A stretch of DNA of 59,308 bases from Clostridiales bacterium (GTDB taxonomy: Bacteria > Bacillota > Clostridia > Lachnospirales > Lachnospiraceae), in assembly GCA_012522735.1 (NCBI GenBank), contig JAAYJU010000133.1:1-59308 (forward strand), in the 5' to 3' direction. Within the stretch, counting starts at the first letter, position 1. Each line of letters begins with the position of its first letter. The translations under genes were made by a program, and so were the position numbers. This document shows positions 1 to 59,308 of the stretch, piece after piece. Below the pieces are notes generated by a model. The model had not been told where the DNA came from. It did no database searches and saw nothing but the letters and a program-made list of their open reading frames with translations.

Positions 1-69
1 CAACGGAGGAATTATCCTCCTAAGCATCCTAAAAATCCTTGTTACCTCCAACGGAGGAATTATCCTCCT
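1..69 (-). repeat. Tandem leader duplication with SD/anti-SD palindromes, after the histidine kinase
   Basis: Two copies of the 21-base motif (1-21 and 49-69) lie 48 bp apart. Each contains a 16-base palindrome (5-20 and 53-68) that on the minus strand reads GGAGGA-TAAT-TCCTCC, so a Shine-Dalgarno core is paired with its own complement. The kinase stop codon (69-71) abuts the upstream copy. By analogy with three other sites in the window, this is probably the duplicated ribosome-binding region of the next leftward gene, which lies outside the window. Confidence 0.7.
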
Positions 70-3000: not shown

Positions 3001-3097
3001 CCCTTATTGTTCGATTACTCGCTCAGGTTGGCACCTTCCGTTTCTGGGGTTGCCGTGACTTCATAGAGCCTTACCTCTCCGTCACTCTGAATAAGAG
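3001..3097 (-). promoter_or_regulatory. SAM-I (S-box) riboswitch upstream of metK
   Basis: On the minus strand the leader has the S-box core in order: a P1 strand CTCTTATT, the P2 region with GACGGAGAGG, the conserved TGAAGTCACGGCAACC, then AAGGTGCCAACCTGAGCGA, and the closing P1 strand AATAAGGG, which pairs with the 5' strand including G-U pairs. A terminator hairpin follows at 2960-2980. SAM binding is expected to favour termination before metK. Confidence 0.95.
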
Positions 3098-10935: not shown

Positions 10936-11200
10936 TCCGTGCATTCTGCTTCGAATGCTCACCACAAGCGTTACCTTTACAGTTAACTCAGTCCAGGTGA
11001 CCTTACGGCACACAGAAGCTTTCGCTTAGTGCTGCTTCATTCCTGACCTGACACGGTTCACGAATTCCTGTTGCGTAAGACCCAGACGTCAACATCACTT
11101 ATAAAGGGCAGCCTCACAATAAGTCACCCTAGGCAGAATATCACCCCTGCTGTAGCGGATTGCAGGTACAGGGCACCGCTATCTCCCCGGCTGCACGGAA
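10936..11200 (-). ncRNA. ffs: Signal recognition particle RNA, long Gram-positive form
   Basis: About 265 nt. Recognised from the 5' CCGTGC pairing with the 3' GCACGG, the Alu-like segment GATAGCGGTGCCCTGTA, and the S-domain tip GTGTCAGGTCAGGAATGAAGC followed by AGCACTAAGCG. The large size with an Alu domain is typical of Bacillus and Clostridium scRNA. It acts with Ffh in co-translational membrane targeting. It directly follows tadA on the same strand and has its own terminator. Ends are set from the terminal helix and may be off by a few bases. Confidence 0.95.
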
Positions 11201-18700: not shown

Positions 18701-18956
18701 GCGCATCTGGCCGCTCTTTATCAATAATATATGTCAGTCTCTCTACATTCAATGGCTCTATATAGGTTACATCCGCTGTAGTAGTATCCGTCATGATGGT
18801 TGCGGGATTAGAGTTTACAAGAATGATTTTATATCCCAAGCTCCTGAGGGCCTTGCATGCCTGTGTTCCCGAATAATCGAATTCGCATGCTTGTCCAATG
18901 ATGATAGGTCCCGAACCTATAATTAACACCTTATGAATGTCAGTACGCTTACTCAT
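15738..18956 (-). CDS. carB: Carbamoyl-phosphate synthase large subunit
   Basis: Makes carbamoyl phosphate from bicarbonate, ammonia (from the small subunit's glutaminase) and two ATP, for pyrimidine and arginine synthesis. The 1072 residues give the standard layout: two ATP-grasp halves (the first begins VLIIGSGPIIIGQACEFDYS, the second VIILGGGPNRIGQGIEFDY) and a C-terminal MGS-like allosteric domain (TVLISVSDRDKPELVEVAQG). I chose the ATG at 18956 because GAGGAGG precedes it by 6 nt and the family start MSKRTDIHKVLIIGSGP fits. The frame extends upstream to a TTG through a duplicated leader. carA is not adjacent. Confidence 0.97.
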   Translation of the reverse strand: MSKRTDIHKVLIIGSGPIIIGQACEFDYSGTQACKALRSLGYKIILVNSNPATIMTDTTTADVTYIEPLNVERLTYIIDKERPDALLPNLGGQSGLNLCSELDKAGVLKKYNVKVIGVQVDAIERGEDRVAFKKTMNTLGIDMARSEVAYTVDEALAIAEELSYPVVIRPAYTMGGAGGGLVYNIDELKTVVARGLQASMVGQVLVEESILGWDELELEIVRDASGNMITVCFIENIDPLGVHTGDSICCAPMLTISKELQKELQRQSYMIVDAIGVIGGTNVQFAHDPISGRICVIEINPRTSRSSALASKATGFPIALVSAMLAAGLNLNEIPCGKYGTLDKYVPNGEHLVIKYARWAFEKFKGAQDKLGTQMKAVGEVMSVGKTYKEAFQKAIRSLEIGRYGLGDAKDFASKTKVQLLDMLHIATSERQFIMYEALRKGASVDELYELTKIKHYFIEQMKELLEEEEVLKTYQGSIPPTKVLQQAKLNGFSDKYLSQLLMISEDSIRKARYDAGIKAAWEGIHVSGTEDAQYYYSSYNIKEDKVPVSTRNKVIILGGGPNRIGQGIEFDYCCVHASFALRDLGIETIIINCNPETVSTDYDTSDRLYFEPLTVEDVLSIYEKEKPLGVIAQFGGQTPLNLAQELKDNGVNILGTTPETIDLAEDRDRFREMMDKLEIPMPEAGMAVNVTEALDIAQKIGYPVMVRPSYVLGGRGMEIVHDDESLKIYMKAAVGVTPDRPILIDRFLHNALECEADAISDGTQAFVPAVMEHIELAGIHSGDSACVIPSLNIKKNNLETIKDYTVKIANEMKVCGLMNMQYAIEDGIVYVLEANPRASRTVPLVSKVCNIQMVRLATQIIVGSYTGMPSPVPGLKESKFTHYGVKEAVFPFNMFPEVDPLLGPEMRSTGEVLGLAQTFGEAFFKAQEATNHRLPLSGTVLISVSDRDKPELVEVAQGFADCGFRILATGGTYDKIVKNGIPAEKIHKLGKGRPDIIDAITNGQIDIVVNTPIDKKGADDDSYIRKAAIKGRISYVTTMAAARATIAGIKDIKLNKAAGVHSLQELHSQIQ

Positions 18957-18960
18957 ATAA

Positions 18961-19035
18961 TCCTCCTCAAATTTTGTTTTTGTCACTTTACTAGTAACGG
19001 AGGATTTATCCTCCCTCAAATTTTGTTTTTGTCAC
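18961..19035 (-). repeat. Duplicated carB leader with SD/anti-SD palindrome
   Basis: A 26-27 base unit ending in the ribosome-binding site occurs twice, at 18961-18986 (the copy used by carB) and 19009-19035, one base longer, with a 48-49 bp period. The extra copy's GGAGG is captured in a 16-base palindrome at 18999-19014 (GGAGGA-TAAA-TCCTCC on the minus strand). The upstream site therefore looks masked, while the downstream site is free unless it pairs with the same CCTCC. Confidence 0.8.
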
Positions 19036-36245: not shown

Positions 36246-37040
36246 CTAAGATAAAATCATCCTGTCATTTGCAAAGCTTCCTTTACTTACAGTCTCAAAC
36301 TTCTTCAGCAAATCCGTAACCTTTAAATTACTTTTTTCCTCGCCACTTACATCAAATATGATATTTCCTTCATACATCATAATTAAGCGATTCCCATACT
36401 GGATGGCTTGTTTCATATTATGAGTTACCATAAGAGTAGTAAGGTTATTGGCTGAGACTATATCTTGCGTAAGTTCTAGTACTCTTTCAGCGGTACTTGG
36501 ATCCAAGGCGGCCGTATGCTCATCTAAAAGAAGAAGCTTTGGCTCTTGTAGGGTTGCCATAAGTAGGGTTAAGGCCTGCCTTTGACCTCCGGATAGAAGG
36601 CCTACCTTTGTGCTCATTCTGGTCTCTAGACCTAAGCCTAGGTTGTTTAGCTTTTCCATATAAATCTGCTTTTCTTTATTGGTAATTCCCCATCTAAGCC
36701 CCCTCCTCTTACCCCTTCGGTAAGCTAGAGCTAGGTTCTCCTGTATCTCCATATTAGCGGCGGTACCCATCATTGGGTCTTGAAATACTCTACCAAGATC
36801 CTTTGCTCTCCTATATTCCGGAAGATTTGTTATATCGTCGCCATCCAATAATATTCTACCGCTATCAGGAGAGTACACACCGGCTATAAGATTGAGTAAA
36901 GTGGATTTTCCAGCACCGTTTCCTCCGATAACCGTAACAAAGTCTCCCCTTCGTAAATGCAGAGACAGGTCATTAATAGCACGTTTTTCATTGACTGTGT
37001 TTTGATTAAAGGTTTTATATATACCATTAAATCTCAACAT
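36246..37040 (-). CDS. ABC transporter ATP-binding protein (TrpXYZ-like importer)
   Basis: A 264-residue ATPase. Walker A is VIGGNGAGKSTLLNLIAG, the signature LSGGQRQALTLLMA, Walker B LLLLDEHTAALDP, and the switch histidine is in LMVTHNMKQAI. Sequence style matches the third component of aromatic amino acid/tryptophan-type importers with PF04392 binding proteins. The ATG has GAGGAGG 9 nt upstream, and that ribosome-binding region is present in three tandem 46-bp units. Confidence 0.93.
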   Translation of the reverse strand: MLRFNGIYKTFNQNTVNEKRAINDLSLHLRRGDFVTVIGGNGAGKSTLLNLIAGVYSPDSGRILLDGDDITNLPEYRRAKDLGRVFQDPMMGTAANMEIQENLALAYRRGKRRGLRWGITNKEKQIYMEKLNNLGLGLETRMSTKVGLLSGGQRQALTLLMATLQEPKLLLLDEHTAALDPSTAERVLELTQDIVSANNLTTLMVTHNMKQAIQYGNRLIMMYEGNIIFDVSGEEKSNLKVTDLLKKFETVSKGSFANDRMILS

Positions 37041-37049
37041 TATTTTAAA

Positions 37050-37195
37050 CCTCCTCGTAAGTGTTAATTTTCAGTAACAATAAACGGAGGTTTTACCTCC
37101 TCGTAAGTGTTAATTTTCAGTAACAATAAACGGAGGTTTTACCTCCTCGTAAATGTTAGTTTTTAGTAACATTGATCGGAGGTTTTACCTCCTTA
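37050..37195 (-). repeat. Three tandem 46-bp ribosome-binding-site units with SD/anti-SD palindromes
   Basis: Units begin at 37050, 37096 and 37142, with a partial fourth ending at 37195. On the minus strand each reads GAGGAGGTAAAACCTCCG at its start and about 28 spacer bases after it. The two nearest the ATPase gene are identical; the third differs at several bases and lies partly inside the permease 3' end. Each GGAGGT-AAA-ACCTCC is a mini-hairpin. The original site was probably that at the permease 3' end, later duplicated toward the ATPase. Confidence 0.85.
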
Positions 37196-38112
37196 CGCGC
37201 AAATAAAGGCTTGTTCTTTAACATGTTCGGAATAGATAGGGCTAATGCAACCACAATAGCGGTGAATAATTTCATATCGTTTGTGTCAAGTCCCAGACGT
37301 AGTATTAGGGCAATGATAATTCTGTATATGACTGATCCACACATTATCGCCAGCATCTTTATAGCAAAATTCTTAGCTTTAAAGAACAACACCTCTCCTA
37401 TTACTATGGATGCTAGCCCTATTACTATTACACCCTGACCCATACCAACATCGGCATAGCCCTGTGTCTGTGTCACCAAGGCCCCTGCTAATGCTATAAG
37501 TCCGTTAGAAAATGAAAGGCCGGCAATCTTCATCATGTCTGTATTGACACCCTGTGCCCTTACCATGGTGTCATTATTTCCGGTTGCCCTTATACAGCTG
37601 CCTATTTCCGTACCAAAAAACCAATAGAGAAAGGCTATGGCTATTAATGAAAAAATTAAGCCTACAAGTAAAACCACTCCGGTTTGAAGGATAAAATCCA
37701 TAATTCCAAGCTCGGCGGCAGTAGGTAATTTATCTTTAATCATAAATATCAGCGATTTGTTTCCAACAAGTGAGGTGTTGGGCTGTCCCATAATTCTTAG
37801 ATTGATTGAGTATAAACCGAACATGGTTAAAATACCTGAAAGTATAGATGGGATTTTAAGCTTTGTGTGCAAAAGACCAGTGATAGCACCTGCTGCTAAT
37901 CCTGATAAGAGCGCCACAAATAGGCTTAAAATTGGATTAAGCTTTAAGCCCACCACAAAAACAGAGCTGATACTTCCTCCCAGTGCAAAGCTGCCCTCAC
38001 AGGTTAAATCAGCATAATTTAGTATTCTAAATGTTATAAATACTCCCAAGGCAAATATTGTCCAAGTTAAGCCCTGAGCAGTAGCTCCATATACAGACAA
38101 GAGTAGGTTCAT
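37156..38112 (-). CDS. ABC transporter permease (TrpXYZ-like importer)
   Basis: A 318-residue integral membrane protein with about eight to nine hydrophobic segments, of the branched-chain permease-like fold used by PF04392-type importers (TWTIFALGVFITFRILNYAD, GSFALGGSISSVFVVGLKL). Its last 11 residues (EVKPPINVTKN) are encoded by the outermost unit of a 46-bp tandem repeat, so the C-terminal tail has been shaped by the duplicated ribosome-binding region of the next gene. A terminator-like hairpin separates it from the binding protein upstream. Confidence 0.92.
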   Translation of the reverse strand: MNLLLSVYGATAQGLTWTIFALGVFITFRILNYADLTCEGSFALGGSISSVFVVGLKLNPILSLFVALLSGLAAGAITGLLHTKLKIPSILSGILTMFGLYSINLRIMGQPNTSLVGNKSLIFMIKDKLPTAAELGIMDFILQTGVVLLVGLIFSLIAIAFLYWFFGTEIGSCIRATGNNDTMVRAQGVNTDMMKIAGLSFSNGLIALAGALVTQTQGYADVGMGQGVIVIGLASIVIGEVLFFKAKNFAIKMLAIMCGSVIYRIIIALILRLGLDTNDMKLFTAIVVALALSIPNMLKNKPLFARKEVKPPINVTKN

Positions 38113-38241: not shown

Positions 38242-39207
38242 CTATTCTGAAGCAAGCTCCTTAGGAATCTCTATTCCAAGCTGATTTGCTACCTCTTCAT
38301 TAATAGTCAGTGCATATTCATCCGCCGGCAGATATTCGATAGGCATGGTTGCAGTGGAGGCTTTATCCCTGATAATCCTAACCGCCTGCTCCCCTGTCAA
38401 ATATCCCAGTTTATAATAGTCAATACCATAGGTTGCCAGACCACCTTTACTTACCATTCCCTCTTCACCACATATAATGGGAATACCGTTGGGGTTTGCT
38501 ACCATAGCTACTGTGGGCATACCGGACGCTATGGTATTATCCGTAGGTGCATAGATTGCATCAACCTTTCCGACTAATGACTGAACAATCTGCTCGATAT
38601 CATTGGTGTTCGATACGGTTGCTTCCACAACCTCTAAACCTAGTTCCTCGGCCGCCTCTTTAGCCATCTCAACTTGAATCTTTGAATTACTTTCACTGGA
38701 GCTGTATAAAATTGCTATTGTTTTAGCCTCTGGAACAAGCTGAGTTAAAAGCTCTATCTGTTGTTTAACCGGAGTGAGATCAGATGTGCCTGACACATTT
38801 CCTCCGGGTGCCTCATTGGATTCAACAAGATCCGAGCCTGCCGGATCCGTTACAGCTGTAACAAGAATAGGAATGTCTCTTGTAGCGTTAGCAACAGCCT
38901 GAGCAGAGGGGGTAGCAATAGCTAAGATTAAATCGCTGCCGTCATTAACCAGCTTTGTTGCTATGGTGTTAAGTGTAGCTTGGTCGTTCTGAGCATTTTG
39001 ATAATCGATTTTAATATTCTCTCCGTCTATGTATCCCGCATCCTTAAGTGCATCTACGAAACCTTCATAACTGGCATCTAGTGCCTCATGTCTAACCAAT
39101 TGGTTAATACCAATTTTAAATAGTTTTTCTTTTTTTCCGCATCCACTAAGCAATCCTGCGGCTAGGGCAAGAACCACTACCCCTACTAAAATCCTCCTGA
39201 TTTTCAT
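38242..39207 (-). CDS. ABC transporter substrate-binding lipoprotein (PF04392, TrpX-like)
   Basis: A 321-residue lipoprotein with signal sequence and lipobox LAAGLLSGCGKK. The mature part follows the PF04392 pattern: HEALDASYEGFVDALKDAGY, ATPSAQAVANATRDIPILVT, AIYAPTDNTIASGMPTVAM. Related proteins bind tryptophan or tyrosine, so an aromatic amino acid is the likely ligand, although no tryptophan T-box precedes the gene. The ATG has GAGGAGG 8 nt upstream. A strong promoter and a duplicated leader lie further upstream. Confidence 0.93.
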   Translation of the reverse strand: MKIRRILVGVVVLALAAGLLSGCGKKEKLFKIGINQLVRHEALDASYEGFVDALKDAGYIDGENIKIDYQNAQNDQATLNTIATKLVNDGSDLILAIATPSAQAVANATRDIPILVTAVTDPAGSDLVESNEAPGGNVSGTSDLTPVKQQIELLTQLVPEAKTIAILYSSSESNSKIQVEMAKEAAEELGLEVVEATVSNTNDIEQIVQSLVGKVDAIYAPTDNTIASGMPTVAMVANPNGIPIICGEEGMVSKGGLATYGIDYYKLGYLTGEQAVRIIRDKASTATMPIEYLPADEYALTINEEVANQLGIEIPKELASE

Positions 39208-39214
39208 TTCAAAA

Positions 39215-39270
39215 TCCTCCTCATAAATTATTATTGTAACAGCTCTTTTAACGGAGGATTTATCCTCCTC
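39215..39270 (-). repeat. Duplicated SD element with SD/anti-SD palindrome, binding-protein leader
   Basis: The used ribosome-binding site (39215-39222 region) recurs 48 bp upstream at 39263. The extra copy is part of the palindrome 39253-39268 (GGAGGA-TAAA-TCCTCC on the minus strand). A more degraded copy of the same element may lie at 39318-39340. The spacer between copies is not conserved, so this duplication looks older than those at 37050 and 18961. Confidence 0.65.
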
Positions 39271-39352
39271 TAAAATTTGTTTTTATAGCAAATATATTAT
39301 TTATTACTACACATATAACGGAAAATTTCTCCTACTCTTGTTTTCACTTTAG

Positions 39353-39376
39353 CGCTTTGACGCTTTGACGCTTTTA
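39353..39376 (-). repeat. 8-bp tandem repeat, three copies, in the binding-protein leader
   Basis: CGCTTTGA occurs twice and CGCTTTTA once without gaps at 39353-39376, just downstream of the -10 box, so it lies at the very start of the transcript. Confidence 0.6.
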
Positions 39377-42649: not shown

Positions 42650-42722
42650 TGCGCCTTCAGGGGCTCGAACCCTGGACACCCTGATTAAGAGTCAGGTGCT
42701 CTACCAACTGAGCTAAAGGCAC
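42650..42722 (-). tRNA. tRNA-Lys (anticodon CTT)
   Basis: A 73-nt cloverleaf. The acceptor GTGCCTT pairs with AAGGCGC (one G-U pair), the D-arm contains AGCTCAGTTGGTAGAGC, the anticodon loop is CTCTTAA and the T-loop GGTTCGAGCCC. The discriminator is A. The 3' CCA is not encoded. Confidence 0.95.
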
Positions 42723-54519: not shown

Positions 54520-54593
54520 CGTGCCTAGCGGGATTCGAACCCACGGCCTTCCGCTTAGGAGGCGGACGCTCTATCCTGCTGAGCTACAGGCAC
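54520..54593 (-). tRNA. tRNA-Arg (anticodon CCT)
   Basis: A 74-nt cloverleaf. The acceptor GTGCCTG pairs with TAGGCAC (one G-U pair). The anticodon loop is CTCCTAA and the T-arm GTGGGTTCGAATCCCGC. The discriminator is G. The 3' CCA is not encoded. Reads AGG codons. Confidence 0.95.
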
Positions 54594-59184: not shown

Positions 59185-59308
59185 ATAGAGTAGAGAAATA
59201 ATTGCTAAGAATTATTTCCCTCTCGTTGAACCGTACGTACGGGTCTCGTATACGGCTCTACAATTTATATTCCAACTTTTCTTAGATAATAATTTAAAGG
59301 ATTGAGCA
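59185..59308 (-). mobile_element. Group II intron, 3' end (domains V and VI), continuing off the window
   Basis: On the minus strand 59258-59228 gives a domain V hairpin: it opens GAGCCGT (catalytic triad AGC) and closes ACGGTTC, with the usual CGTAC stretch before it. It is followed by AACGAGAGGG and a domain VI-like stem (GAAATAATT / AATTATTTC, 59219-59194) ending CTCTACTCTAT, near the expected 3' splice site. The catalytic core, RT gene and 5' end would lie to the right, beyond 59308. The exact 3' boundary is approximate. Confidence 0.65.
59265..59308 (-). CDS. Possible C-terminus of the intron-encoded reverse transcriptase (partial)
   Basis: One frame entering from the right edge codes LNPLNYYLRKVGI and stops at 59265-59267, 6 bp before domain V. 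Reverse transcriptases of some group II intron classes end just before domain V, so position and context fit. Only 13 residues are visible, so this is weak. Confidence 0.3.
   Translation of the reverse strand, partial: LNPLNYYLRKVGI

Follow-up and report, generated by a model that had tools for sequence, protein, structure and literature searches.

The window (the whole stretch of DNA that was analysed, 59,308 nt) carries arrays of a short unit at ribosome-binding sites, all on the minus strand. Read in the direction of the gene, a unit consists of GGAGG, 5 to 6 bases, CCTCC and a linker of mostly 31 to 34 nt that leads to the next GGAGG. Three units with a 46-bp period lie at 37050-37192 before an ABC ATPase gene, where TRF reports 3.2 copies at 37049-37193. 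A single unit with a 21-nt partial copy precedes carB (18962-19035), one unit precedes a substrate-binding-protein gene (39216-39268), and a further array is cut by the contig edge (5-68). The original prediction, made from the sequence, had described the three 46-bp units and the same architecture at the other places, all of which are confirmed; the gap between GGAGG and CCTCC, given there as 3 to 4 bases, is actually 5 to 6, and the smaller figure is the loop that results if a sixth base pair is counted. We refer to the last GGAGG of an array as the true Shine-Dalgarno sequence (SD), to the earlier ones as decoy SDs and to the strand containing CCTCC as the anti-SD strand.

37188-37192, minus strand: decoy SD 1 of the ATPase array, from the sequence; its paired anti-SD 1 is 37178-37182
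37142-37146, minus strand: decoy SD 2 of the ATPase array, from the sequence; its paired anti-SD 2 is 37132-37136
37096-37100, minus strand: decoy SD 3 of the ATPase array, from the sequence; its partner is anti-SD 3
37086-37093, minus strand: anti-SD strand AAACCTCC of the last ATPase-array unit, complement of the true SD plus three spacer bases, from covariation in 61 + 71 units
37055-37085, minus strand: linker of the ATPase array, 31 nt, the loop of the predicted masking helix, from the sequence
37047-37054, minus strand: true SD GGAGG plus spacer TTT of the ABC ATPase gene (ORF 36246-37040, PF00005)
19015-19035, minus strand: 21-nt partial copy of the linker end, carB array
19010-19014, minus strand: decoy SD of the carB array
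18999-19006, minus strand: anti-SD strand AATCCTCC of carB
18959-18966, minus strand: true SD GGAGG plus ATT of carB (CPSase large chain), with the SD-matched ATG at 18954-18956
39320-39332, minus strand: apparent decayed older hairpin (GGAGAAATTTTCC) 5' of the intact ABC_sub_bind unit, as read from the sequence; it resembles the single unit of locus L084
39264-39268, minus strand: decoy SD of the substrate-binding-protein array
39253-39260, minus strand: anti-SD strand AATCCTCC of the substrate-binding-protein array
39213-39220, minus strand: true SD GGAGG plus ATT of the ABC_sub_bind gene (ORF 38242-39207)
1-68, minus strand: array cut by the contig edge (matched 5-68), with decoy 64-68, anti-SD 53-57, GGAGG 16-20 and anti-SD 5-9; its gene lies beyond the left edge

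The ORF listing places the carB start at a TTG at 19019, within the array, and not at the SD-matched ATG. Among the 23 GGAGG-led ORFs of at least 80 aa in the window, CCTCC was found within 60 nt upstream in 4, namely the three array genes (at 31 to 32 nt) and one start internal to carB. The stop codon of ORF 37156-38112, which occupies the permease position of the operon 5' of the ATPase array, falls 37 nt inside that array. Short direct repeats of the type GCGTCAAA/GCGCCAAA are present at 39353-39374, ahead of the ABC_sub_bind operon, and in most of the related loci L084-L094, varying in number and form; they resemble the repeated operators of a transcription factor. A search of the window against Rfam 15 at gathering scores gave 5 matches, none at an array: a SAM riboswitch (3001-3097), a bacterial large SRP RNA (10937-11198), two tRNAs (42650-42722 and 54520-54593) and a group II intron near the right edge (59185-59260).

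Throughout the 2.8-Mb source genome (G000), GGAGG-N3-7-CCTCC was found at 130 sites compared with 11 for the reversed control, and the full pattern of decoy, CCTCC, linker and GGAGG gave 79 forward and 79 reverse matches compared with 1 and 0, tandem arrays matching on both strands because the unit is palindromic. The palindrome had been proposed to be enriched before start codons; it is, strongly here and also in some relatives, and it is conserved. After 3 of 103 candidate units were dropped as non-elements (C60:17144, C31:3119 and C47:52065), 100 remained: 61 were gene-proximal, defined by a start codon 3 to 17 nt downstream and a frame of at least 40 aa or running off the end, 37 led into another unit and 2 were at a contig edge. 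Hairpins without a GGAGG at the usual distance (e.g., C160:16427 and C59:22798) are outside these 100 units, and the contig coordinates of some minus-strand loci are possibly flipped, the sequences being unaffected. Beyond contig C149, units are known only at ACCTCCGT-type places, so the 61 arrays are a lower bound and base -1 of the anti-SD strand is A-biased there, its partner remaining unbiased. In eight contigs a unit is located no more than 70 nt from an end (C60, C73, C122, C164, C189, C192, C195 and C220), with the same or nearly the same unit at the ends of C73 and C192 and of C189 and C220. The assembly thus seems to break in arrays, and the true unit numbers may be higher.

The linkers at different genes fit one family consensus, CCTCCGTTATA.GT, in a scan of 69 units, so the sites are not the independent ones with different spacers that had been assumed. 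Units within one array are often near-identical tandem copies, which upholds the earlier idea of repeated leader duplication inside arrays; across genes, the one consensus indicates that arrays look like dispersed copies, not independent local duplications. The family resemblance extends 3' of the SD, with G at +4 in 59 and at +5 in 62 of 132 units, compared with G at +4 in 2 of the 19 other starts in the window.

In all 61 source-genome arrays the last GGAGG is placed as the SD of a gene, 3 to 12 nt 5' of the start codon (56 ATG, 3 TTG and 2 GTG). The stop codon of a same-strand upstream ORF lies within 60 nt of the first decoy in 18 of the 61 and inside the array in 5. A Pfam scan of 60 of the 61 downstream proteins matched 55, which had no function in common; array genes include CPSase large chain, ribosomal protein S18, class I and class II tRNA synthetases, NusB, a MurD-type ligase, LGT, AraA, rubrerythrin, a Crp-type regulator, GH53, GH94 and GH120 (short gene names such as carB and gpsA are our reading of the Pfam matches). 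An upstream ORF or leader-peptide attenuator was rejected, as none of 96 decoys had a start codon at usable spacing (4 to 10 nt 3' of the decoy SD), and an intrinsic terminator or attenuator was likewise rejected, with a T run following the decoy hairpin in 0 of 96.

The three bases 5' of the last CCTCC (-1 to -3) complement the three bases 3' of the true SD (+1 to +3) in 54, 55 and 54 of the 61 source-genome arrays, compared with shuffle means of 30.6, 39.6 and 47.6 for -1:+1, -2:+2 and -3:+3. At position 4, pairing (13/61) was at the shuffled level. The search patterns had left the covarying bases free, except for base -1 in the ACCTCCGT-type set. The corresponding counts were 69, 69 and 65 of 71 in the related genomes G001, G009 and G015, a set that excludes G009 C319:239, which duplicates C203, and the alternate register G001 C5:6861, and 14, 13 and 14 of 15 in G006, G013, G004 and G025 pooled, where the loops range from 5 to 36 nt. 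In G014 they were 22, 20 and 19 of 22, above shuffling at -1 only, since the other two positions vary little.

Base -1 pairs also with +1 of its own decoy, in 38 of 58 units in the source genome and 67 of 71 in G001/G009/G015; own-decoy pairing at -2 was not above shuffling. In the 22 source-genome units whose decoy and true SD carry different bases at +1, the anti-SD side matches the true SD 18 times and the decoy 4 times. For internal units, pairing with the decoy that follows was seen at -1 in 28 of 37 cases but at -2 in only 11 and at -3 in only 5, which indicates that the complete helix belongs to the gene-proximal unit alone. When all column pairs were scanned in 69 equal-length units (the set of 71 adds two terminal units), the top four were the three true-SD pairs and one decoy pair, and no further covarying helix stood out, linker included. 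The two covariations together point to one anti-SD strand with two mutually exclusive partners, and the simplest account of both would be that selection maintains two alternative helices in the RNA at the ribosome-binding site. That the decoy SD, the CCUCC strand and the true SD can compete had been part of the original prediction, and the covariation bears this out in that both pairings are kept.

In an alignment of 46 of 47 references (one antisense reading was dropped), the 8-bp helix with the true SD was formed in 96.7% of cells compared with 87.6% after shuffling and at most 59.2% in slid registers, and 27 cells were changed on both sides compared with 9.4 in the shuffles; two of the five measures (pairs with changes and further pair types) were not above the shuffles. 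RNAalifold recovered the same helix unaided. G-U pairs occupied 2 of 396 cells, compared with 28 mismatches. As selection on RNA should tolerate G-U, this near-absence is fitted equally well by a DNA inverted repeat.

For naked RNA, two structures are predicted: a decoy hairpin of 6 bp with a 3- to 4-nt loop when the sixth pair is included, which leaves the true SD free, and a masking helix of 8 bp over an AU-rich loop of about 32 nt, which closes it. The mean ViennaRNA energies over 58 units were -13.7 kcal/mol with the true SD kept free and -14.0 kcal/mol with the decoy kept free; the gap was 2 kcal/mol or less in 33 of the 58 units, with a spread of 2.5 and wide variation from locus to locus. 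The predicted probability that the true SD is unpaired averaged 0.30 and fell to 0.02 when the decoy was masked. From 20 to 65 C, predicted accessibility stayed at 0.27 to 0.33, or 0.02 to 0.03 with the decoy masked (58 units). Copy number had been suggested to tune output, an idea that folding does not favor: in 28 arrays, of which 2 were mis-walked (C189 and C122:97668, stalled at the stretch edge with eight identical values), predicted accessibility was 0.27 with one unit, 0.32 with two and 0.30 with all, and going from one unit to two raised it in 13 arrays and lowered it in 6. With no clear trend in the folding prediction, an increase of true-SD accessibility with copy number was rejected.

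The arrays detected were confined to some members of a single Lachnospiraceae genus (Herbinix and relatives), the named relatives being Herbinix sp. STF1_226 and Mobilitalea sibirica. In 10 of the genus's 33 other genomes, unit matches number at least 10 and reach three times the control of that genome, a count that may be too low because short-loop arrays can match the control too. Among 155 other genomes of the order there was no enrichment: 57 had some match, and none had at least 10 matches with three times the control. One of these, G149, had 30+26 matches against a control of 26+23, and the closest small cases were G099 (4+4 against 1+1) and G172 (3+1 against 0).

Orthologous sites may be filled or plain. 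At the substrate-binding-protein locus, units are present in the window, in L084 (with CCTCG for CCTCC) and in L085, and a plain SD in L086-L094. Of 23 carB leaders compared, 15 were resolved, among them that of G029, whose form is ambiguous. The long form is present in G000, G009 and G014, a 46-bp form with GCCTCC/GGAGGC in G013, a 26-bp form in G006, a shifted form TTATCTCCTT/AAGGAGATAA in G032 (L219), and a plain SD in G001, G005, G007, G008, G015, G017, G019 and G023. In L219 the whole hairpin set now has GGGAGA/TCTCCC-type arms and its true SD, AAGGAGATAA, is the complement of TTATCTCCTT, a case in which both arms, SD core included, have changed in nature. A stretch like ACAAATTTTTTTTGCCCATTTTTA is kept 5' of carB in most resolved relatives (L204-L219), whether filled or plain. 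Among 13 gpsA loci, G009 was filled, 11 were plain and the start was out of view in G023; G000 and G014 are filled as well.

Of the 22 array genes of G014, 13 have a match among the 61 array genes of the source genome, two of these ortholog pairs being weak (score ratio 0.51). Their linkers are identical in 296 of 431 columns (69%), and 7 of the 13 pairs are fully paired at all three positions in both genomes; in one of the seven both arms were swapped, AAA/TTT to AAT/ATT, with pairing kept. A second orthologous leader has the -2 pair swapped and the -3 pair lost, and others have lost one or two pairs in one genome, as in carB of G014, which pairs at -1 only. The filled and plain orthologous sites and the pairing of the orthologs together suggest that arrays come and go, that some are old and that pairing is mostly kept.

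We propose, with moderate confidence, that the array is a cis-acting bistable translation-control module which, as a cassette amplified in tandem, has spread to sites before genes of mixed function. With n anti-SD strands for n decoys plus the true SD, an array always has one SD to spare. From sequence and covariation, the last anti-SD would have two options: a 6-bp pairing with the decoy of its own unit, in which the true SD stays open, and an 8-bp pairing that takes in the true SD and three spacer bases and closes this SD. The folding predictions suggest that the two states would be about equal in energy and that the true SD would almost always be closed once the decoy is masked. During transcription the decoy hairpin would form first, so that translation would start open; if the decoy were then held by a 30S subunit, a protein or another RNA, the freed anti-SD could close the true SD. 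The arrays may have spread as a dispersed ribosome-site cassette and grown by tandem duplication between GGAGG ends, which are identical, with gene-distal units decaying and the gene-adjacent unit being kept. Against a switch stand the mixed gene set, the near-absence of G-U pairs and the lost pairs in several leaders. A further-reaching form of the proposal, possible but doubtful, is genome-wide translational control in which 30S occupancy of the decoy would decide whether the SD of the gene is open, such that dozens of genes, many of them housekeeping, would sense the free ribosome supply in cis via a copyable cassette invented and spread by one genus.

Since the resemblance among units continues beyond the SD, the spread of a cassette probably contributed and could even be the full explanation: a repeat of about 48 bp, selfish or spreading passively, would enter at GGAGG, duplicate it and supply a new SD, with the hairpins serving spread and not regulation. 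The linker and spacer consensus common to unrelated genes, the many such targets and the filled and plain SDs of orthologous genes all fit this account. It would not, however, lead one to expect that arm pairing is mostly kept, once through a clean two-sided swap, while ortholog linkers are just 69% identical, or that the full helix is present in the gene-proximal unit only. Nor was a matching transposase found. The Y1 transposase PF01797, the candidate for RAYT/REP mobility, was rejected because its presence does not track arrays: one gene is present in the source genome, and 18 of 34 genus genomes have it, including the array-poor G007 and G023, and the array-rich G015 has none. As the whole explanation we regard spread without regulation as rather unlikely.

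Templating at the level of DNA, in which fold-back or template-switch copying would make or repair the arms and the covariation would be mutational, is improbable. It would explain why the arms change on either side, G-U and one-sided standard intermediates being nearly absent, but the pairing ends sharply after three spacer bases in every set where a variable extension is expected, and true-SD pairing holds although internal units differ, where action on all units is expected. An RNA thermometer, in which heat would open the masked SD, accords with the masking of the SD by an anti-SD strand but is very improbable given the flat response in the folding prediction, and a thermometer would have no need of the decoy. 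Chance or local tandem-repeat noise, suggested by the near-identical units within arrays, has practically no likelihood in view of the genome-wide enrichment, the SD placement and the covariation replicated in several genomes.

As for the bistable module, alternative helices that mask an SD usually turn up at single genes and together with a ligand. In translational riboswitch platforms and SD-sequestering leaders, two exclusive helices set access to the SD. The 3' tail of 16S rRNA itself carries CCUCC; a search for this tail in sets of 4 and 6 genomes did not find it, possibly because such stretches are left out of these sequences. By analogy, the array would work like a translational riboswitch platform minus the aptamer: the covariation of both helices points to mutually exclusive helices around the SD, but no aptamer was found (no further covarying helix and no Rfam match), the competitor is a second SD, and the module is tandemly repeated and stands before at least 61 genes. 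RNA thermometers also mask the SD by base pairing; here, in contrast, a decoy SD is present and the predicted temperature response is flat. BOX elements and REP/RAYT repeats are dispersed, modular and partly tandem, with hairpins beside genes. Compared by architecture, the arrays are like BOX in being multicopy and modular with variable unit numbers beside genes, but unlike BOX and REP/RAYT they always run in the gene direction and end in the gene's own SD, and no transposase tracks them. At 14 array loci, an Rfam 15 search with E values up to 1 gave 2 sub-threshold matches, neither at an array, and a literature search, which covered few subscription papers and preprints, found no such element. 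The closest analogue encountered in print is formed by the TAACTGA direct repeats in Beggiatoaceae, many sets of which lie just 5' of the start codons of mixed genes and for which a translational role was proposed; these are heptamer repeats, and neither an SD/anti-SD pair nor alternative helices are described in the abstract or outline of that report (PMC4679880).

From its sequence, the array looks like a previously undescribed on/off switch for protein making, a single small module that stands before at least 61 genes of one genome and whose pairing is largely kept while the linkers diverge. The type strain Mobilitalea sibirica DSM 26468, which has a carB array, makes the module testable. 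If it works as we infer, these bacteria would hold a natural library of bistable translation switches, and a short repeat would be able to take over ribosome-binding sites genome-wide.
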